Shown one piece after another: positions 2,831 to 13,895 of a stretch of DNA of 20,127 nucleotides. How positions within the stretch are numbered: position 1 is the first letter of the stretch; every line of letters begins with the position of its first letter. The DNA comes from a virus. Location: positions 1-20,127 of IMG/VR virus record IMGVR_UViG_3300042406_000220, one strand, 5' to 3'. The position numbers and the translations under genes were made by a program. The notes under the pieces are model-generated. The model had not been told where the DNA came from and made no database searches. It was given only the letters and a program-made list of their open reading frames with translations.

Positions 2831-2850
2831 ATTTTTTTATTTTGTTAGTT
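2831..2850 (-). promoter_or_regulatory. AACTAA-type A-rich translation leader
   Basis: The minus strand reads AACTAACAAAATAAAAAAAT immediately before the ATG at 2830. It lies mostly inside the last codons and stop of the upstream 1245-residue gene. It is the clearest copy of a leader pattern shared by four genes in this cassette. There is no GGAGG-like Shine-Dalgarno motif. Confidence 0.5.
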
Positions 2851-5800
2851 TGTTTATATGTGTTATAATTTTACTTACTTGATTGTTAGTTAAGCAAGTT
2901 TGTTCTGCTACTGTAGGTGTACAAGGGTTAGTGTTTATAAAATCACCTAATACTCCTGCTGCAAATATACCTTCATAAGGTGTTAATACAGGGTCTACAC
3001 CATTTTCAAGTGGTAATGATTGTCCATAATTATTTACAGCATATTGAGGTGAATCATAAGTATAGAATAATTCTATATCATTGTTACCATTAAAATAAGC
3101 AAAACTATTTAAAGGTGAATTTATTATAAAGTCAGTTAATAAACTGTTAGCACCAAAACCTAAGTTATTAATAGAATTATCTATAGCAGTACTCCACTGT
3201 TGAAATGAACTATAATTAACTGGAGAACCATCATTATATAATGTATAAGGAGATGTTCCTGGAAAAAATGGTACTGCTGTACCTGTTAATAATAAAGATA
3301 AACTACCTATAGTAGTATCTATACCACCAGTAAATTGGTCAGGGTCACTATAACTATCTGTAACATTATTATATATAAAATCTTCACCATTATAAATCCA
3401 AGTTTGTTCATTAGGATCTGCTGTGAATCTAACTTCATCATATGTAGTAAAACCACCTCCTGTAAAGTTACTAGTAATTATAGTAGTTGTAGTATCAGTA
3501 CCATTACTAAATGTAGGTGTTGGAACTGTTTGTATTGCAACACCTCCAGTAGTTACTGCTGAAATAGTAGCATTATTTAAAATAGTACCTGTATTTACAG
3601 GAGCAAATATTAATATTGTAGTACCAATAGCTACTGCTGTATAACCATGTGTCCCTGTACCAGAATTAATTCTATCTTTATACAATGTTGCACATTGTGC
3701 AGCAGTTTGTGGTATTGGAAAATTTCTAACTCCTAAACTAACTGAACCAAGAGATACAGTTAATTCCATTGAACCTGATACTACAGCACCTGTTGTAACT
3801 ATAACTGGTACACTTGCTCTAGCATTAGGTATTGTTTTAGTTATGATAGATAAATAATTATTATAAGAACCAAAAGTACCTGAAGGTGATAATAATTTTA
3901 AAGTAGAAGTTATTGCAGATGCTGTACCTGTCCAAGGATTAAGGTTTATAGCAGATGCTAATCCTGAAGCTAATCCATTAGCTGTATAATCTGCAGATAT
4001 AGTAGGTGTAAATGTACCTATTAAAACTGGTGGAGAAGGTGGAAAACCAATAGGTTGATAGTAAGTTTTTAATACAGTATTTGGTATTTCAGATAATCCA
4101 AACATATTAAGCAAACTTTGAGATAATATCTCAGGTAAAGCCTGTTGAGTGCCAAGTAGTGTTGCTGAATAATTAAATGGACTAAGGTTATTAAAATAAT
4201 CTACAAATCCACTAATACCATCTACATCATAACTGTTTTGAAGTAAGTTTAAAATAGTAAGAGGAATTTGGTCATTAACAAAATTAATTTCTGGAGATAC
4301 AGCATTTATACCATTGGCCATTATACCAATAGTACTTATAAAATCATTTGCTGTATATTGTAATGATGTATAATCTAAAGTTAATTGAAAAGTATAATTA
4401 TTAAAAAAAGCTCCTTGTAAACTATATACTGTTGTAATTACAAGATTAGTACCACTTAATGATGCTATAAAATTTGAATTAAAAGTAGGTTGACTATTTA
4501 AATCATTTACAATACTTTGTAAATTTATAAAGTTACCAGTATTAGTAATTGGTAACCCATATGGGATATTACCACCATCAAGTATAACTAATGTGTAAGT
4601 AGCTTCTGTAGTATCTGCACCTCCAGAATATGTACCAACATCTACATAGGTTCTACCAACAGATGGGTCATATGTATAAGTTAAAGTAGTACCATTATAA
4701 GCCCAAGCTGGTGGTGCAGGTAATTCTACATTTACTGTATAAGTTATTCCATTATTACTTACTATAGTTGCAATAGCACCAAAAGGATTAAGATTAAAAT
4801 CAATTAACATCTCTTGTATACTAGTAAATACAGTACCAGGAGCACTTTGATAAAGTGTTACACCACCTGAACTATTGAAAAAATTAACACTACCATCAGT
4901 ATCATTTACAGCACCTGCAAATTGACTACCATCAGGTTCATAAAATTCTACTGGATATTGGATTTCAATTATATCTCCATCATAATCTGTTTGTGGATAT
5001 ATATTAGGTGCTGTTATATTCAATAAATGTACAGGTGTTGTTGGAGTACCTACACCACCATTAAAATAATAAAGAATTGGTCTATCACCAGGTTTCTCTA
5101 TTGAAAATGCATATGTAGAAACACCTGCATTATAATTCCAAGAATTTCCTGTACCTAATGGTGCAGTTAATGTAATAACTGTTCCAGATACACTAACAGT
5201 GCCTTGAAAAATACCTTGAGCAATAATGTTAGCAGCTATAAAATTTGCTACATCTGCAGGTGAATCACCAGAAGCTACTGTATATGTACCTATAGTAGTA
5301 CTTATATTACCTAATGGTACATTAACTAACTTAACTGTATATACATTTCCTAATGCAGCAGTATTAAAAATTGTTAATGCATTAGAAGCTGTTGCTAATA
5401 CTTCACCTGGTATTGGTGCAAAACCACCATCACTTGCTGTAAATCCTTGACCATTATTTGAATCAAAACTATTTATTAATGCAGTCATATCAGCATAACT
5501 ACCAGAATGGCTAAACATTAAAGCACCTTCATAATAAAAATCTTGTGCTGTAGAATTAAATAATTCTAACAATGGTATAGACATTGTTGCTGGCTGACCA
5601 AGAGCAAATTGATTTATTGGTATTAATATATTAGCAGATGCAGGAGTTGGAGTAGTTTTATAAGGTAATCTACCTGAAGGTAATGTTATTAAAGTATCTG
5701 CTACATGACTAGCTACAAAAGTAGGTTGTTGAAATAGTATATCAGCATAAGCAGGTGTACCTTGAGTTACAAAAGCAGGTAATCCCGATAAATCAAAGTT

Positions 5801-6574
5801 TACAAAAGAATCACTTCCACCTTCATATTGCCTAAATTTTACAACATAGTTATTATAATCTACATTATCAAAAGGAGAGTATAAAACAAACTGTCCTCCA
5901 GAATACTGTAAAATCCAATCAGGATATGTAGTATTCCAAAGTTCTAGAATAGCTTCTATATTATCCATATCAACTGCAGGAATAGTTAAACTTACAGGTG
6001 GTGAAAGATTTGTAACTCCATCAGGTTCATATACAGTTATACTACCATTCCAAGTACCAAAATCATTATCTACTGTAACTGCAAGTTCATGGTCTATTAT
6101 TGGTAATTCAGCTACTTCTATAGGTGAAACAGCAGTACCTGTTATATCACAAGTATCTGTAAATTGTACACCAGTAATAGTAATAACTACATTATTTAAT
6201 GTTCCTGTAAAATCTATTACTATTTTTTGATTAAATTCATCATACCAATATGTAAAATTATATCCAACATTATTAAATACCATATACCCTTGATTATTAC
6301 AATCAAATTGTATAGGTGTATTAGTTACTGGTAATTGAGAATTTAACAATACAGTGTAATCACCTTCAATACAGCAACTACAAGTAATAGTACTACCTAC
6401 TATCTCAAAGTTTCTAAGTATTTCTATATAAGCTCTAAGTAATCTTATCTCTTTAAATAGACAAGTGTTATTCTTACCCAAAGCAAGTCCTGTATAGTAC
6501 TTAACTGATTTTTTAGCTAAAGCATAAAATGCTTTAATTATTGCTACTTGTATATTTAATGGTGTTAATATCAT
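2837..6574 (-). CDS. Giant beta-repeat tail/adhesin-type structural protein (1245 aa)
   Basis: This is the largest protein in the window and is made mostly of beta-strand-rich repeats with little charge. Residues 1-60 are different: a helical segment with KYYTGLALGKNNTCLFKEIR and AYIEILRNF, followed by a cysteine cluster (C65, C67, C68) and C92 and C142. Two internal module types recur. Type A (about 428-480, 852-907, 938-1001) has the pattern GTYTV, a short helix, then a strand ending ITLTAP-GTG. Type B (about 620-664 and 1052-1097) has W-x-YNG and then GGADTT or GGIDTT. YEPDG also occurs twice (about 182 and 545). The C-terminus (1218-1245) has C1218 and C1227 and a helix QVSKIITHINKL. No catalytic motif is visible. 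It is most likely a fibre, whisker or adhesin on the tail or capsid. Family unknown. Confidence 0.8.
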   Translation of the reverse strand: MILTPLNIQVAIIKAFYALAKKSVKYYTGLALGKNNTCLFKEIRLLRAYIEILRNFEIVGSTITCSCCIEGDYTVLLNSQLPVTNTPIQFDCNNQGYMVFNNVGYNFTYWYDEFNQKIVIDFTGTLNNVVITITGVQFTDTCDITGTAVSPIEVAELPIIDHELAVTVDNDFGTWNGSITVYEPDGVTNLSPPVSLTIPAVDMDNIEAILELWNTTYPDWILQYSGGQFVLYSPFDNVDYNNYVVKFRQYEGGSDSFVNFDLSGLPAFVTQGTPAYADILFQQPTFVASHVADTLITLPSGRLPYKTTPTPASANILIPINQFALGQPATMSIPLLELFNSTAQDFYYEGALMFSHSGSYADMTALINSFDSNNGQGFTASDGGFAPIPGEVLATASNALTIFNTAALGNVYTVKLVNVPLGNISTTIGTYTVASGDSPADVANFIAANIIAQGIFQGTVSVSGTVITLTAPLGTGNSWNYNAGVSTYAFSIEKPGDRPILYYFNGGVGTPTTPVHLLNITAPNIYPQTDYDGDIIEIQYPVEFYEPDGSQFAGAVNDTDGSVNFFNSSGGVTLYQSAPGTVFTSIQEMLIDFNLNPFGAIATIVSNNGITYTVNVELPAPPAWAYNGTTLTYTYDPSVGRTYVDVGTYSGGADTTEATYTLVILDGGNIPYGLPITNTGNFINLQSIVNDLNSQPTFNSNFIASLSGTNLVITTVYSLQGAFFNNYTFQLTLDYTSLQYTANDFISTIGIMANGINAVSPEINFVNDQIPLTILNLLQNSYDVDGISGFVDYFNNLSPFNYSATLLGTQQALPEILSQSLLNMFGLSEIPNTVLKTYYQPIGFPPSPPVLIGTFTPTISADYTANGLASGLASAINLNPWTGTASAITSTLKLLSPSGTFGSYNNYLSIITKTIPNARASVPVIVTTGAVVSGSMELTVSLGSVSLGVRNFPIPQTAAQCATLYKDRINSGTGTHGYTAVAIGTTILIFAPVNTGTILNNATISAVTTGGVAIQTVPTPTFSNGTDTTTTIITSNFTGGGFTTYDEVRFTADPNEQTWIYNGEDFIYNNVTDSYSDPDQFTGGIDTTIGSLSLLLTGTAVPFFPGTSPYTLYNDGSPVNYSSFQQWSTAIDNSINNLGFGANSLLTDFIINSPLNSFAYFNGNNDIELFYTYDSPQYAVNNYGQSLPLENGVDPVLTPYEGIFAAGVLGDFINTNPCTPTVAEQTCLTNNQVSKIITHINKLTK
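3284..3421 (-). repeat. Protein repeat module B, copy 2 (in the 1245-aa protein)
   Basis: Encodes residues about 1052-1097, with QTWIYNGEDFIYN, then FTGGIDTTIGSLSLLL. It is the counterpart of the copy at 4583-4717. Confidence 0.55.
3572..3763 (-). repeat. Protein repeat module A, copy 3 (in the 1245-aa protein)
   Basis: Encodes residues about 938-1001: VSLGSVSLGVRNF, a helix (TAAQCATLYKDRIN), then TILIFAPVNTGTILN. It is the most diverged of the three module A copies and follows copy 2 after about 30 residues. Confidence 0.4.
3854..4021 (-). repeat. Protein repeat module A, copy 2 (in the 1245-aa protein)
   Basis: Encodes residues about 852-907: IGTFTPTISADYT, a short helix (LASGLASAIN), then LKLLSPSGTFGSYNN. 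The order of elements equals module A copy 1, but sequence identity is low. Confidence 0.4.
4583..4717 (-). repeat. Protein repeat module B, copy 1 (in the 1245-aa protein)
   Basis: Encodes residues about 620-664, with W-AYNG-T-LTYTYD, then YSGGADTTEATYTLVI. It matches the spacing of the copy at 3284-3421, which has W-IYNG, then FTGGIDTTIGSLSLLL. Confidence 0.55.
5135..5293 (-). repeat. Protein repeat module A, copy 1 (in the 1245-aa protein)
   Basis: Encodes residues about 428-480: a strand (TIGTYTV), a short helix (SPADVANFIAANI), a strand, then VITLTAPLGTG. Related copies lie at 3854-4021 and 3572-3763. Similarity is at the level of protein pattern, not of DNA identity. Confidence 0.5.
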
Positions 6575-6986: not shown

Positions 6987-7985
6987 TTATAAAGTTGTAT
7001 TATATCTTAATATGTTTATCATACCTGTAGATCCACCAGAACCATCATCAGATGTTGATGATACAATAGTAAAATTTGTAGAATAATTAAATCCTGAATC
7101 TAACCTCCAAATTTTTTGAGCAAATTGAGATTCTCCAAACAAAGCTTGAAATTCTTTATTATATCCATAAATTGTACCTTCAATTCTAGCTGCATTAGTT
7201 GCTATTCTAGTTATTTTAACATCTGCTTTTATAAAATTTATAACTTCATTTGAAGTATAGCCTGATGGAGGAGTATTAGGATCTTTATCAAATTTAATTT
7301 TTGCAGGATCAATTCCAAAATTAGGTCCAGCAGAACTTATAGAAAATAAAGATGTTGTTGTTAATCCATCATTAATAGAAAATCCAGTTGAATTAAAGAC
7401 ACCTGTAGCATCTCCTGTAGTACTTTCTATTGTAAAAGTAATTATTTTACCAATAGCATCTAACTCATTAAAAGGAACAGTAATAAGAGCATTAAGTCCA
7501 GGTCCAGGATTACTAAATATATCAGCTTTAATTCTTTCTACACCAGCACTAGCTGATGCTCCTATAGTTCCTGAAGGTGTTACTATAGTACCTGCAGCTC
7601 CTACAGCTGTTGTAGTTGCTCTAAAAGTTACACCTGGAATAGTCCAATCCATTCTTGTTACTACCATAGATGTAGGTGTTAATATATTTGTAACTCTATA
7701 AAAACCTCCTGGATCAGGAAAACTGATTGAATTTCCTACATAAATAATTTGATCTTCGGCTGCCCAAGCAGTATTTGCTACATTTATTTGTACTGTAGAA
7801 TTAGCTGCTGGTTGAATAAAAAAACCTGTTAGAGTAGTAAAAGCATTTATACCATTATTACCTACAGGTCCTACACTTCCTGTATCTCCTTTATCACCTT
7901 CATCACCTTTAGGTCCTGGAACACCTTGTGGTCCTCTTGGTATTGTTGTTGAATTGCAGTTACAACTGCCTGAACATGAACACAT
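6987..7985 (-). CDS. Collagen-like tail fibre protein with cysteine-rich N-terminus (332 aa)
   Basis: The N-terminus has four cysteines in nine residues (C2, C4, C8, C10; MCSCSGSCNCNS). It is followed at 18-47 by ten perfect Gly-X-Y triplets, of which several have charged residues (GPKGDEGDKGDTG) that commonly stabilise bacterial and phage collagen-like helices. Residues 48-332 are beta-rich: a first domain around QINVANTAWAAEDQIIYVG, a central part (about 150-250) and a C-terminal domain rich in aromatic and glycine residues (AQKIWRLDSGFNYS), ending in MINILRYNTTL. The likely form is a trimeric fibre with a collagen stalk and globular tip. The clustered cysteines could bind metal or form interchain links; neither can be decided from sequence. 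The gene lies in the fibre cassette 23 bases after the 162-residue gene. Confidence 0.82.
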   Translation of the reverse strand: MCSCSGSCNCNSTTIPRGPQGVPGPKGDEGDKGDTGSVGPVGNNGINAFTTLTGFFIQPAANSTVQINVANTAWAAEDQIIYVGNSISFPDPGGFYRVTNILTPTSMVVTRMDWTIPGVTFRATTTAVGAAGTIVTPSGTIGASASAGVERIKADIFSNPGPGLNALITVPFNELDAIGKIITFTIESTTGDATGVFNSTGFSINDGLTTTSLFSISSAGPNFGIDPAKIKFDKDPNTPPSGYTSNEVINFIKADVKITRIATNAARIEGTIYGYNKEFQALFGESQFAQKIWRLDSGFNYSTNFTIVSSTSDDGSGGSTGMINILRYNTTL

Positions 7986-8008: not shown

Positions 8009-8497
8009 TTATAAATCAATTTCGTAGTAAGTTCCTAATATACGTACAAATCCATCTCCTTGGGTAGCATTATTTTCATCTCTAGTTGTTATATATGCAT
8101 TACCTTGACCTATTGGATTTTCTAAAGATAAGTTAGTTGTAAGAATAGTATTTTTATTACGTGTTAATAATACATTATCACCATCAGCAGCTTGAGGAAT
8201 TTTTAAAGCAGTTGTTGTAATAATAATTACTTCTAAAAAATCAAATGCTTCTGTTTGCCCTGTAAGTATAGCAGCAGCAGAAGTAATTATTACAGTTCTA
8301 TTAGATTGTACTACTACTAATGGAGTTGTAGGTATATTGCGAAACTCTAATCCTGTAAATGTTACATCAAATTTATTAGCACTGCTGTTAATAGCATCTA
8401 CAATTTCATTTAAATGCCCAAATCTAGCAATAGTTGCATCATTGGCAGTTACAATTGTTGGATCTAATCCTGTATTACCTAGTTTAAATTTTTCCAT
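8009..8497 (-). CDS. Small fibre-type structural protein (162 aa)
   Basis: The N-terminal segment ARFGHLNEIVDAIN (residues 24-37) is a motif I associate with the start of many phage fibre and tail-needle proteins in environmental phages. It is followed by a beta-rich domain (KFDVTFTGLEF, TPLVVVQSNRTVIITS, FDFLEVIIITTTALKIP) and ends in a strand-turn segment (DGFVRILGTYYEIDL). There is no signal peptide or membrane helix. It lies three bases after the cysteine-rich 205-residue gene, so the pair is co-translated. It probably forms part of a fibre attachment or tip. The family name is not known to me, and the structural role rests on the motif and on neighbours. Confidence 0.72.
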   Translation of the reverse strand: MEKFKLGNTGLDPTIVTANDATIARFGHLNEIVDAINSSANKFDVTFTGLEFRNIPTTPLVVVQSNRTVIITSAAAILTGQTEAFDFLEVIIITTTALKIPQAADGDNVLLTRNKNTILTTNLSLENPIGQGNAYITTRDENNATQGDGFVRILGTYYEIDL

Positions 8498-8500
8498 AGC

Positions 8501-9118
8501 TTAACTGCAGCCACAACCACAACCACCAGTTGTAGATGTTCCACATAATTTTTGAAGTTTGTTTAATAGTTTAGTAAACTCTGCAGTACCTAAAGATTCT
8601 GCTGTTGCTTTTAATGCTTGCAAAATACCATCTGCAAGTAAGAAATCTTCATAAGCTTGTGAATCACAATCATTACATAATTCTGCTGCAACTGCTGCTG
8701 CTTTATTAGCAACACAACAAGCTACATTACAATACACTACAAAAGTAGTATCTACTACATATACAGCATCACTGCTATCTGTTATAGTATATACAATAGT
8801 ATAATAACCATCAGCTAAATTGAAAGTACTTCCTGTACTATCTACAGGAGTATATTGGTATAATTCAAATTCAGGAAATACAGAATTTTGTATTTTATCT
8901 AGTACACTAACTGTAGTTGCTGCACCACCATTTAATGATATGTCAATAGTAGCTGCAGTAACATATGGAGTATTGCTATTTGCATTTGTTCTCCATAATG
9001 TAAGATTATTATTCCAACCATAAATGTTATTAGGATTGTTATAAAACCCAGTAGTGTCGTTAAATGTTATACCTGTGCATCCATTAAGACAAGCAGATAT
9101 TGTTGGTATAAATGCCAT
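8501..9118 (-). CDS. Cysteine-rich beta-domain virion protein, probable fibre adaptor (205 aa)
   Basis: Residues about 50-130 look like an immunoglobulin- or fibronectin-like beta-sandwich (AATIDISLNG, LADGYYTIVYTITDSSD, VVDTTFVVYC). A cysteine-rich helical part follows: C130, C134, C135, C148 and C151, a helix-loop-helix (DFLLADGILQALKATAES, FTKLLNKLQKLC) with C192, and an ending GGCGCGCS with C200, C202 and C204. Two more cysteines (C10, C14) are near the start, giving eleven in 205 residues. I recall similar beta-domain plus Cys-Cys plus helix-pair proteins in Bacteroidota phages, but cannot name the family. This is the first gene after the terminator at 9149-9188 and so begins the fibre cassette. 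A role as adaptor between particle and fibres is inference. An alternative is a metal-binding structural plug. Confidence 0.72.
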   Translation of the reverse strand: MAFIPTISACLNGCTGITFNDTTGFYNNPNNIYGWNNNLTLWRTNANSNTPYVTAATIDISLNGGAATTVSVLDKIQNSVFPEFELYQYTPVDSTGSTFNLADGYYTIVYTITDSSDAVYVVDTTFVVYCNVACCVANKAAAVAAELCNDCDSQAYEDFLLADGILQALKATAESLGTAEFTKLLNKLQKLCGTSTTGGCGCGCS

Positions 9119-9208: not shown

Positions 9209-10528
9209 TTATGCGTTAGAATTTGAATCTGGAAAAGGAGATACTAAATCTAAAGTTGCAGGAACCCATGCATTAAATACAGTTACAAAAGTAGCTTGGT
9301 TATCAGTTGGTGCAAAATTACCAACACCATCACCACCAGCCATGTAAAGGATAACTTGTCCTTTATTTTCACCAGCACCAATAAGTGAATTAAGTCTGCT
9401 TAACCAGCTAATAACTACTGGGTTATATTGTGTACCAACAATAGCATCTTGTTCACGGAACAATGGTGGAACTTGATCAACAAATACTTGACCTTCATCA
9501 CCCCAAGAAATGTACTCATCATTAGCAGCTTGCTCATAAACAGCAACACCATCAAAGGCAGCAGTTGTAGTTACTACAGCAGCATCAAATCCTTCAAGGA
9601 ATGTGTTAAATCTAACTTTGTCATATTGTCTCCAACGGTTAACGTCATATTTTTGCTTAAGACCTGTAATTTTGATACCAACATTACCTGGAGTAGCTAC
9701 TGTGTAAAGATTAGCTCCAGTTGCTACTGTTGTATCACCTTGCCATACAAAATCAAGTACAAGGTTAAAAGTACCAGTACCAGCTTGAGAGCCAGAAGAA
9801 ACTACTTTTACTACAGGGTTAGTGTAAGTTGTAATACCTGCACCAACTCTAATATAAGTACCTGCAGCAATTGCAGAAACAGCACCATTAGTAGTTACTA
9901 CTGCAGTTTTAGAATACTTAGTAAAAGTAATACTAACAATATTTGCATCAAGAGTAGTAATTACTGTACCAGCTCCATCAGCAACTAGTTCAGATTTTAC
10001 TCTCCAATCAATAGTTCTGTTTGCACGGAAATTTGTAATTAAAGATTTAATCAAACCAATTGAGTTACTTAATGCAGAAGCAGAAGCACCTGATTGGAAT
10101 GTACCATACTTGTAACTTGCAGGACGTTTACCATACAAGAAAGCATTTGGAGTGTGTTCTAACTTAATAAGAAAGAAGTTATTAACTGTTGCATCCATAG
10201 TACCAGAAGTACCATTGTATCCAATGTAAGATACTTGTTCTGAAGCAACAGCACCAGAATAAGCAGATGTTTTAGCAAGTTCAGATAAACTTATTACTAC
10301 TTGTTGTAATGGTAAATCAGCACCACGATCTTTGATGATTTTGATTTTATCATAAGCAAGTACTGTAGTTGCATCTAGTACTATGTTAGACATATTAGTA
10401 ATACCTACCCAACCAGCTGTACCACTATTAGTGGATCCTGGAGTTACTACTGTTCCAGCAGTTGGAGCAGCTGAAATAGAAGGCATAATAAATACGCTTT
10501 TAATGTTATTTTTTGAATCTAAAGCCAT
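9209..10528 (-). CDS. Probable major virion structural protein, unassigned (439 aa)
   Basis: The protein is alanine-, threonine- and valine-rich with few cysteines and an unusual start (MALDSKNNIKSVFIMPSIS). A helix-bearing region (about 110-185, NNFFLIKLEHTPNAFLYGKR and IGLIKSLITNFRAN) separates an N-terminal beta part from a central beta-domain (about 190-280). A C-terminal region has conserved-looking aromatic stretches (YISWGDEGQVFVDQ, NPVVISWLSRLN). The gene has its own promoter-like box upstream and a strong terminator downstream, and its composition is closer to the capsid gene than to the fibres. This suggests high expression, as for a tail tube, tail sheath or another repeated subunit. 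No sheath or tube signature is clear enough to choose. A crAss-like podophage would have no sheath, so this gene could decide the tail type. Confidence 0.7.
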   Translation of the reverse strand: MALDSKNNIKSVFIMPSISAAPTAGTVVTPGSTNSGTAGWVGITNMSNIVLDATTVLAYDKIKIIKDRGADLPLQQVVISLSELAKTSAYSGAVASEQVSYIGYNGTSGTMDATVNNFFLIKLEHTPNAFLYGKRPASYKYGTFQSGASASALSNSIGLIKSLITNFRANRTIDWRVKSELVADGAGTVITTLDANIVSITFTKYSKTAVVTTNGAVSAIAAGTYIRVGAGITTYTNPVVKVVSSGSQAGTGTFNLVLDFVWQGDTTVATGANLYTVATPGNVGIKITGLKQKYDVNRWRQYDKVRFNTFLEGFDAAVVTTTAAFDGVAVYEQAANDEYISWGDEGQVFVDQVPPLFREQDAIVGTQYNPVVISWLSRLNSLIGAGENKGQVILYMAGGDGVGNFAPTDNQATFVTVFNAWVPATLDLVSPFPDSNSNA

Positions 10529-10580: not shown

Positions 10581-11354
10581 TTATTCTAAATTCTCTGCAC
10601 TTAATTGGTTAGCAGGTATCTGTTCTCTCACTGCTGCAGAGAGTAATTTTACAGCGATGTCACAGATACTTTGATGTGATATGGGGTCTAACTCACAACT
10701 TACTTGTGAACTAGGGTTGGATAAATTAATTTGAATATCTTGAGGATATTTAATATATCTCATGTAATAATTAGTAACATTTTCATTAGGATTAGTACTG
10801 TATATAATACCATGTATTTTTCTTTCTTGAGTTACAGCATTATAAGTTACATTTTGAGTACCATGTTCTAATCTCCATAAAATACCTTCAGTACCATCAG
10901 TCCAAGGTTTTTTATAAGGGTTAGAAAAGTTTAAATTATACTCATCATGAGATATTGGTATTGTCATGATTCTATTATATGTAGATGTAGTACCACATTG
11001 TTTAGTATTTGTAGTACAACCTTCATAAATAGGCAGCATGCAATCAACTGGAATTGCCCAGAGAGTTTCTCCAGGCAATGTACCAGTTTGTTGGTTGTCG
11101 GGTAATTTTATAATAGGAGGATTTGCATTTCCACTATCTTTTACTAATGATGATAACTCTTGTATTCTAATTTCAGTTTCTTCAAAACCCTCCATGTTTC
11201 TGTTACTCTTAGGGTTGATTCTCTGTAATACATAATACCATTGAGCCTTTGTTAAAATAATGCTTGCTTCAGGGTCAACAAACCCAGGAGCACTTTGTGA
11301 GTAAAGTGCATCATATGTTACAAGGACATTATCCCACATTTCATTAGCTGTCAT
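10581..11354 (-). CDS. Head-tail connector / neck ring protein candidate (257 aa)
   Basis: The N-terminus is mainly helical (MTANEMWDNVLVTYDALYSQ, then ILTKAQWYYVLQRINPK) and leads to a helix FEETEIRIQELSSLVK at about 57-72. A beta-rich middle contains ALWAIP-like ETLWAIPVDCMLPIYEGC (96-113). The end has the run YYMRYIKYPQDIQINL followed by CELDPISHQSICDIAVKLL (220-238). The final pattern, a tyrosine-rich strand, a proline turn, then C/SELD and a helix beginning near H227, is one I associate with adaptor (ring) proteins below the portal in crAss-like and related phages. Its position two genes after the capsid agrees. Its start overlaps the preceding stop by four bases (ATGA). No enzyme motif is seen. 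The exact ring (R1 or other) cannot be fixed. Confidence 0.68.
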   Translation of the reverse strand: MTANEMWDNVLVTYDALYSQSAPGFVDPEASIILTKAQWYYVLQRINPKSNRNMEGFEETEIRIQELSSLVKDSGNANPPIIKLPDNQQTGTLPGETLWAIPVDCMLPIYEGCTTNTKQCGTTSTYNRIMTIPISHDEYNLNFSNPYKKPWTDGTEGILWRLEHGTQNVTYNAVTQERKIHGIIYSTNPNENVTNYYMRYIKYPQDIQINLSNPSSQVSCELDPISHQSICDIAVKLLSAAVREQIPANQLSAENLE

Positions 11355-12380: not shown

Positions 12381-13895
12381 TTAAACTAGGTTGTAACGGA
12401 AATCCACTACTTTTGTTGGATCAGTAATCATCATTCCACCCCACATCATTCTGTGAATTTCATAACCATCAGATCTAGATACTGCCATTGAAGGAGAACC
12501 TTTACCTGCAGGTGTGAATGGATCACGCATACCTGGGATATAACGGAATACAGATGGTTGACCTTTTACAGATACTCTCTTAATTCCTGATTCACCACCA
12601 AAATCCATAGCAATCATTCTACGAGATTCAGTAGTTCCACCTTCTGGGTGAGTTTCAGGGAAAAGAACTTTATCATCAAACATTGGACAGTACATTAATT
12701 CAAATGTAATACCATTGATTGAATAGTATTTAGTAAACTGGAAACCAGCAGAAAGTGGCTTAGGAATACCATTAAGTTTTCCACCATTTTCTTTATGGAT
12801 AGAAGTATCATTACTACGGCCTGGACCATTACCTAAGCTAGTAGTAATCATTAATTCAGTACCACCTTTAGCAAGTACAGCTCTGTGGAAATCACGGATA
12901 CCATATTCACCTGTACACAAAGTAACAACTCTGTTACCCATTTCAATTCTACCAATAGATAGATCCAAGAATACTTCAGTTAAGAAATCTAAGTCAAGAG
13001 TTGAGTAATAGTGAATGTTAGATGGTGCAATTTGCTCAAATAAACCAGCACCTGATTCCAATGGATATTTACCAGAAGCATCTTTGTTCAAGAACAAATC
13101 TTTTTCTGTAAAGTTGTGTAGACCATAAAAGTGCATAACTACGTTAGCAACTTCAGCTTGGTACATAGCTACCATATCAAGGTAGTTAATCCAAACTTTT
13201 TCTTGCTTACCATCAAGTCCAGGGAAAGAGAACTCTAATGGATAGTTTTTACCTTCGTTAATCATGTTACCAGGAACTTCATACTCAAAACGCTGCATTG
13301 TAATTCTGTTACGCATTCTGAATGGTGAAGTGAAATTAGGCTTCTGACCACGGCTAGAAAGTGTAGATGGTGCTACGTTGAAAAACTTAGCCCAACGCTG
13401 ACCAGCTTCAAGTTCTTCTGCAGGAACAGAAAGAGTTGGATCTGATGTCAAAAGTTCTACTTCATACTCATAGTTAGTACCTTTAGGCTTAACAGAGATT
13501 ACACGTAGTAAATATTCTGCTTTATTACCTTTTAAGATGTTATCTGGCTCAAAATACTCTTCACCAAATACTACATAGAAAGCAGCAACTCCAGCACCTA
13601 GTTCACCTGCATTAGCAGCAGAAGTTCCAGTAGCATCATATGCTTCTAACAAAGGAATATTTTTATCATGTTGACCTTGGAGCATCCACTCATAGTAGTT
13701 ATTTTCTTCAACTTCCACAACTGGAAATTGGTTAAGGAAGTCAAACATCGCATTCTTCAAATTTGTTCTGAAAATCTGGTGAATGGTGTTAGTTACAAGC
13801 TGAGGTCGCTTCATGTATAAAGCTCCCAAGTTATTTGCAGTTACTAGACCATTGTAGTCTTTGGCTGCGTATTTCTGTAGTTGAAATAATTGCAT
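12381..13895 (-). CDS. Major capsid protein, HK97-fold type (504 aa)
   Basis: Size, position after portal and scaffold, a dedicated terminator and a relatively higher GC content all point to the major capsid protein. The N-terminal arm is helical (LQKYAAKDYNGLVTANNL, then TNLKNAMFDFLNQFPVVEVEE). Residues about 75-110 are glycine- and alanine-rich and could be the extended loop. The middle has DYLDMVA-like WINYLDMVAMYQAEVANVVMH (about 235-256), and a later beta part contains GRIEMGNRVVTLCTGEYGIRD. The C-terminus ends in SDGYEIHRMMWGGMMITDP and DFRYNLV, a closing strand pattern I associate with capsid proteins of large Bacteroidota phages. It begins eight bases after the scaffold-like gene with an A-rich leader. 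There is no transcription box of its own, so it is probably co-transcribed with that gene. Assignment is confident; subfamily (crAss-like) is not proven. Confidence 0.88.
   Translation of the reverse strand: MQLFQLQKYAAKDYNGLVTANNLGALYMKRPQLVTNTIHQIFRTNLKNAMFDFLNQFPVVEVEENNYYEWMLQGQHDKNIPLLEAYDATGTSAANAGELGAGVAAFYVVFGEEYFEPDNILKGNKAEYLLRVISVKPKGTNYEYEVELLTSDPTLSVPAEELEAGQRWAKFFNVAPSTLSSRGQKPNFTSPFRMRNRITMQRFEYEVPGNMINEGKNYPLEFSFPGLDGKQEKVWINYLDMVAMYQAEVANVVMHFYGLHNFTEKDLFLNKDASGKYPLESGAGLFEQIAPSNIHYYSTLDLDFLTEVFLDLSIGRIEMGNRVVTLCTGEYGIRDFHRAVLAKGGTELMITTSLGNGPGRSNDTSIHKENGGKLNGIPKPLSAGFQFTKYYSINGITFELMYCPMFDDKVLFPETHPEGGTTESRRMIAMDFGGESGIKRVSVKGQPSVFRYIPGMRDPFTPAGKGSPSMAVSRSDGYEIHRMMWGGMMITDPTKVVDFRYNLV

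Follow-up and report, generated by a model that had tools for sequence, protein, structure and literature searches.

A cysteine-rich protein in a metagenomic crassvirus cassette as a probable diverged counterpart of tail hub protein A

The structural cassette and its cysteine-rich protein

The window, i.e., the whole 20,127-base virus record that was analysed (IMG/VR IMGVR_UViG_3300042406_000220), comprises a structural cassette of Crassvirales type. In gene direction, the order is terminase-like, portal-like, a 397-aa protein, capsid, a 319-aa protein, ring 3/4, a 439-aa protein, a 205-aa protein and fibre-like genes; the labels ‘terminase-like’ and ‘portal-like’ were assigned from place and size. 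The crassvirus major capsid protein (12,381–13,895, minus strand; Pfam PF23898, E = 1.7e-105) is about 33% identical to that of the nearest named crassvirus, and tail ring protein 3/4 is encoded at 10,581–11,354 on the same strand (Pfam PF25710, E = 4.7e-22). The 439-aa protein (9,209–10,528, minus strand) occupies the slot of the auxiliary capsid protein (gp36). It has no match in Pfam, and its profile matches the auxiliary capsid family (P = 0.0042) as opposed to eight other families (P = 0.37–0.82). In two of the sequences compared, which carry L-numbers and are mostly contigs of relatives, the protein in this slot has a cysteine-rich C-terminus (GTCDCG in L010, 6632–7909; GTCCG in L011, 6635–7909), while most relatives have no or one cysteine. 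Elsewhere in the window, a 117-aa protein (2477–2830) has a weak and probably chance match to Pfam Colicin_M (E = 0.0035; 16.9 bits with a cut-off of 27).

The 205-aa protein is encoded on the minus strand at 8,501–9,118, from ATG to TAA. It contains 11 cysteines (positions 10, 14, 130, 134, 135, 148, 151, 192, 200, 202 and 204) and ends in GGCGCGCS. The cysteine richness and the CGCGC end that drew attention in the initial annotation are real: 1.36 cysteines are expected from the mean rate in the other 13 window genes examined (0.66%), giving a binomial P of 1.7e-7, or 2.4e-6 after multiplication by 14 genes. An AlphaFold2 model built from 15 sequences (mean pLDDT of 73, medium confidence) divides the protein in two. 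Residues 1–128 (8,735–9,118, minus strand) are predicted to form an Fn3/Ig-like beta-sandwich with an N-terminal C10-x3-C14 and model strands running from E7-11 to E119-128, in line with the beta-sandwich that had been proposed at the outset. Residues 129–205 (8,504–8,734, minus strand) comprise a predicted three-helix domain (H130-145, H154-175 and H178-192), which holds C130, C134, C135, C148, C151 and C192, and a tail. Within this tail, the C-terminal CGCGC (C200, C202 and C204; 8,507–8,521, minus strand) is predicted to be disordered.

Relatives of the 205-aa protein were collected in two scans of IMG/VR contigs, which yielded 17 contigs, 14 of them common to both scans. All 11 cysteines are invariant in the 16 complete relatives (16/16), and L009, cut off at a contig end, retains the first seven (7/7). 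Three of the 16 (L030, L031 and L032) share the same 205-aa sequence; the family alignment (A3) omits L009 as well as L031 and L032, which are identical to L030. In its 15 rows, 66 of the 205 columns are invariant and include all 11 cysteine columns (hypergeometric P = 2e-6), with a mean column identity of 75%. The cysteines are thus conserved, a point on which the earlier idea of a cysteine-based scheme depended, but since three out of the eight patterns that seeded the search include cysteines, relatives without those cysteines may be under-sampled. No relative was confirmed in the bacterial and archaeal genome contigs scanned, no match was obtained among the named phages searched at protein level and no usable match in Pfam or PHROGs. 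Among PDB sequences, the best match is a single helix of a designed protein (E = 0.0077), and no stretch is significant alone.

A homology chain to tail hub protein A

The slot of the 205-aa protein, after the genes for the major capsid protein, the gp33 counterpart, ring 3/4 and the auxiliary capsid protein, is that of tail hub protein A (THA). In phicrAss001, the order is capsid gp32, gp33, rings gp34/gp35, auxiliary capsid gp36, a homing endonuclease and gp38, the THA (gene-product names as in Bayfield 2023, PMC10172136). In the Cellulophaga phage phi14:2, capsid gp102 is followed by gp101, gp100 in the ring position, auxiliary gp099 (Pfam crAss_AuxCP, E = 6.9e-93) and gp098, a 186-aa protein annotated as structural from MS/MS proteomics. 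The same slot in Flavobacterium phage Fpv3, whose gene order is unannotated, holds a 248-aa protein with 13 cysteines (ANB40420, phrog_15330). The latter resembles the window protein in slot, in its many cysteines and in being followed by a fibre-like gene with a cysteine-rich start, but the HMM of the window family does not match it significantly (whole sequence, E = 1.6; best domain, E = 0.043; among 276 ORFs).

Searching these 276 ORFs of crassvirus loci with the family HMM placed two members of the gp098 family at ranks one and two (E = 1.2e-4 and 6.4e-4) and a THA at rank three (E = 0.059). Likewise, hhalign aligned the window family with the gp098 family (P = 4e-4) and with THA (P = 3e-3, or 0.0027), as opposed to P = 0.29–0.79 for eight other families, so that the match is selective; the associated probabilities are low (35% for gp098, 10–11% for THA) and only the helical part is covered. 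At the structural level, a Foldseek search of BFVD with the 205-aa model retrieved the phi14:2 structural protein S0A0T4, i.e., gp098 (E = 2.4e-4), and the 167-aa cr128_1 protein A0A7M1S1J4 (E = 0.019), which is linked to the cr128_1 THA homologue by length alone, as the sole annotated 504-nt CDS of cr128_1. Two better-ranked entries (E = 2.6e-7 and 1.7e-5) carry no informative name.

The second link of the chain is provided by a gp098 model (three sequences, mean pLDDT of 72, medium confidence). Its best matches in the PDB are 7qol_W (E = 2.1e-5), 7qoj_G (5.4e-5) and 7qoj_H (7.3e-4), the next one following at 3.9e-3. All three are phicrAss001 tail chains, and 7qoj_G is the THA gp38. The alignment of the gp098 model to the phicrAss001 tail entries reaches a Z of 12.2 over 143–144 residues at 4.9 Å, with 8.7 for the next entry. 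Sequence profiles alone relate gp098 to THA with P = 0.051 and in a different register. The succession of a beta-sandwich and three helices, as in 7qoj_G, is therefore reached via the gp098 bridge and not by a direct match: among the best 50 PDB matches listed for the 205-aa model, which are filled by Fn3-type domains, there is no THA, which does not exclude THA. Pfam crAss_THA (PF25724, cut-off of 27 bits) has no match in the window, the records of four relatives, phi14:2 or the relative of phi14:2, while three out of three control records matched; we therefore call the 205-aa protein a counterpart that lies outside PF25724 as drawn.

The Fn3-type domains deserve attention, as they suggest another reading in which the protein is a fibre-associated or fibre-tip Ig-like adhesin, found in the hub slot by coincidence, with cysteines that merely stabilise the monomer in the environment. 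The best VIA-align rows for the sandwich are mostly domains of this type (Z of about 8; 85–98 residues at 2.5–3.4 Å), and the fibre genes come directly after the 205-aa gene. By itself, the resemblance of residues 1–128 to such common domains may reflect nothing beyond a common fold. Against it, the 205-aa protein agrees with THA and gp098 in helical domain, slot and cysteine register. It also remains constant (mean column identity of 75%) while the adjoining fibre genes vary in length and number, and the odd number of cysteines together with the unstructured CGCGC tail suggests intermolecular bonds. We regard an adhesin as improbable.

Compared with phicrAss001 gp38 (PF25724; PDB 7qoj, 7qol and 8ckb), the 205-aa protein shares the slot, a similar length (205 versus 215 aa), the number of cysteines (11 each), the beta-sandwich followed by three helices (via gp098), cysteine in the loop that precedes helix 2 and a CGC at the end. 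It differs by its extra CGCGC, by a family in which all 11 cysteines are invariant versus three in the gp38 family, by an N-terminal sandwich that is not alignable by sequence, by the lack of a recognisable THB gene downstream and by its position outside PF25724. With gp098, its best HMM match, it has in common the slot, the architecture, a CxxC loop, a KxC ending helix 3 and a CxxCG tail; gp098 differs in having six cysteines, a shorter sandwich and a cysteine-free C-terminal extension. Taken together, we consider it probable, at roughly 80%, that the 205-aa protein is a diverged THA counterpart, the 11 cysteines of which most likely serve as disulfide staples of the tail collar.

Cysteines of the hub and of rings 1 and 2

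In an alignment of 12 THAs, C163, C211 and C213 (gp38 numbering) are the only invariant cysteines (12/12). A weak hhalign alignment (P = 0.0027, probability of 11%) pairs them with C151, C200 and C202 of the window protein, through which the latter shares the invariant cysteines of THA. In the gp098 family, C97, C108, C111, C152, C156 and C159 are kept in three out of three members, and hhalign pairs C108, C111, C152 and C159 with C148, C151, C192 and C200 of the window protein. According to Bayfield 2023 (PMC10172136), the phicrAss001 hub consists of two THA and one THB and takes up residues 1–26 of the trimeric fibre gp22; disulfides within the hub and between it and rings 1 and 2 are described there, as is the stabilisation of hub, collar and both rings by such bonds. 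A literature search on crassvirus tail hubs and disulfides found this paper alone, and searches on cysteines and redox in crassvirus-type tails and on cysteine-rich collagen-like fibres of crassviruses returned nothing judged relevant, all within a coverage that subscription papers mostly fall outside.

Alternatively, the hub cysteines (C-x2-C, C-x3-CC and CGCGC) may bind metal, as zinc or as an iron-sulfur cluster, instead of forming disulfides. C148-x2-C151 and the closely spaced CxC motifs would fit metal sites, and phi14:2 gp098 likewise has two CxxC. On the other side, Pfam and PHROGs gave no match of the 205-aa protein to a metal-protein family, the CGCGC tail is predicted to be disordered and the bonds published for the phicrAss001 counterpart are disulfides. 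The word ‘zinc’ is absent from Bayfield 2023 (PMC10172136), and ‘metal’ appears a single time, within a reference. Metal binding by the hub is deemed unlikely.

For disulfide staples, candidate partners would be supplied by rings 1 and 2. In four longer relatives, ring 1 contains nine cysteines (4/4) versus two in phicrAss001, two in phi14:2 and four in cr128_1; the identity of ring 1 in this lineage follows from Pfam CrAss_Ring_1 (E = 3.2e-50, one relative tested). Six of these nine, all conserved, belong to an insert with the motifs LCGC and CDEC, which is absent from ring 1 of phicrAss001, phi14:2 and cr128_1. This insert (the LCGCNAFTTCDEC region) is present in L073 (7709–8674), L075 (9538–10506), L076 (10140–11078) and, on the reverse strand, L074. 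One ring 1 cysteine is kept in six out of the seven proteins compared. Ring 2 has six cysteines in 4/4 relatives, and three ring 2 cysteines are kept in 7/7.

Ring 2 was found in all five long relatives’ records (5/5), but THB was not: a 10-row THB alignment detected none in these five records, phi14:2 or its relative, with three out of three control records matched, one of them itself in the alignment. Pfam THB (PF25711) matched in 0/7 records without a Pfam THA and in 3/3 controls. The window gene in the interval between the hub and the collagen-like fibre (8,009–8,497, minus strand) encodes 162 aa without cysteine, is not a recognisable THB and is missing from the corresponding place in several relatives. 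The A2B hub of phicrAss001 may therefore not apply here. As the THA of this lineage lies beyond Pfam, THB may also merely be diverged.

Cysteine clusters on the fibres and a model of the collar

Cysteines are also concentrated at the ends of the 332-aa and 1245-aa neighbours, as the initial annotation had pointed out. The 332-aa protein (6,987–7,985, minus strand) is a collagen-like fibre with Gly-x-y repeats, PHROG tail fibre matches and a Pfam Collagen match (E = 1.1e-4) below cut-off. Its N-terminus, MCSCSGSCNCNS, contains all four of its cysteines (C2, C4, C8 and C10; residues 1–10 at 7,956–7,985, minus strand) in the pattern CxCx3CxC. With a cysteine-free anchor for this N-terminus, 16 matches were obtained in 14 out of 18 sequences, and each of the 16 carries the cysteine cluster; the remaining four sequences break off no more than 1.2 kb from the hub gene. 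In L031 (8045–9488), two successive collagen-like genes have differing cysteine-rich starts, MCSCTGSCDCNS and MCDSNCGCGCNS. A DNA-pattern scan for the fibre N-terminus across 2.9 million viral contigs returned 25 contigs, of which 13 are known hub contigs. In the other 12, the frame spans only 2–17 codons and the hub gene was not found. The real fibre N-terminus thus co-occurs with the hub in 13/13 contigs, all of one lineage, which makes this association weak evidence.

The 1245-aa protein (2,837–6,574, minus strand) has cysteine-rich conserved ends and a middle that varies among relatives. Residues 38–92 hold five cysteines and the last 28 residues two, with single ones at 142 and 961. The N-terminal cluster (6,299–6,463, minus strand) consists of C38, C65 and C67, kept in 10/10 rows, and C68 and C92, kept in 9/10, while the C-terminal pair C1218 and C1227 (2,894–2,923, minus strand) is present in eight of the nine rows that reach the C-terminus; these counts leave out the relatives in L004, L030 and L031, which the start pattern missed. 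Both ends are kept by relatives of 407, 425 and 1149–1245 aa. The shortest, in L006 (10342–11619, 425 aa) and L013 (9993–11216, 407 aa), retain both cysteine-rich ends, so that the middle of the protein is exchangeable. No homology between these ends and the hub profiles was detected (P = 0.29–0.36 against THA for the N- and C-terminal parts, taken separately or together), and they are hence not one domain shared with the hub. A fusion of THB into the 1245-aa protein was also considered and rejected, as comparison of the same parts with the THB profile gave P = 0.41–0.48.

In phicrAss001, the docking residues 1–26 of gp22 contain no cysteine, and the 12 fibre-region and nearby proteins examined in phicrAss001 and phi14:2 have no or one cysteine in their first 40 residues. 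Among the proteins examined, both phages thus combine hub cysteines with fibre starts that are not cysteine-rich, phi14:2 differing in this respect from the window, whereas Fpv3 has both. The Fpv3 gene after the cysteine-rich hub-slot protein (L048, 13934–15925) is fibre-like and starts with MCKQQNCGCNDPCK, a second instance of such a pairing. Given the cysteine-poor fibre starts of phicrAss001 and phi14:2, cysteine-to-cysteine docking of fibres on the hub is at most a lineage feature. The originally suggested docking based on disulfides finds partial support: the hub cysteines are conserved, the cysteine-rich fibre start is found in the hub contigs, and the phicrAss001 counterpart is held by disulfides according to Bayfield 2023 (PMC10172136). 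A bond between hub and fibre would be a further step, which the cysteine-free start of gp22 does not favour.

The fibre cluster could also be unrelated to the hub and form a cystine knot at the N-terminus, by which the chains of the collagen-like trimer are brought into register and locked. It immediately precedes the Gly-x-y repeats, and animal collagens employ cystine knots of this kind. On the other hand, the real fibre N-terminus is seen only in contigs with the cysteine-rich hub, which is weak evidence as they form a single lineage, and the 1245-aa protein, which is no collagen, has cysteine-rich ends too. We give this explanation of the fibre cluster slightly less than an even chance.

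The slot, the predicted fold, the homology chain to THA, the cysteine conservation and the cysteine clusters of ring 1 and the fibres were obtained here. From phicrAss001, we infer the collar location, the fibre docking and the disulfides to the rings; by this analogy, the 205-aa protein is very likely a part of the virion collar that docks fibres. As a hub subunit with a beta-sandwich and three helices, it would form a collar around rings 1 and 2, which make up the upper tail barrel, and supply the socket for the tail fibres. Some staples would lie inside the three-helix domain (the C-x2-C loop and KLC). Others, made by the flexible tail with its CGCGC and by further exposed cysteines, would link neighbouring hubs, attach them to both rings and possibly reach the cysteine-rich first residues of the fibres. 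These disulfides would form after lysis, once the virion meets oxidising conditions. Both this timing and any covalent link between hub and fibre are our own proposals. A more far-reaching reading, in which the whole collar is one covalent disulfide network of ring 1, ring 2, the 11-cysteine hub A and the fibre starts that forms outside the cell, in which hub A works without a recognisable THB and in which the collagen-like and other fibres are covalently docked, is put forward as a tentative and rather doubtful extension.

New points are how far the family extends, the conservation of all its 11 cysteines and the parallel cysteine enrichment of ring 1 and of the fibre ends. The assignment of the tail hub, hitherto based on a single cryo-EM structure and on a Pfam family that does not reach phi14:2, is extended to metagenomic crassviruses, and a redox-locked tail collar is indicated as a recurring solution among crassviruses. 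Covalent docking of the fibres is an attractive reading of their cysteine-rich starts and, if true, would represent an unusual mode of phage adhesin attachment.
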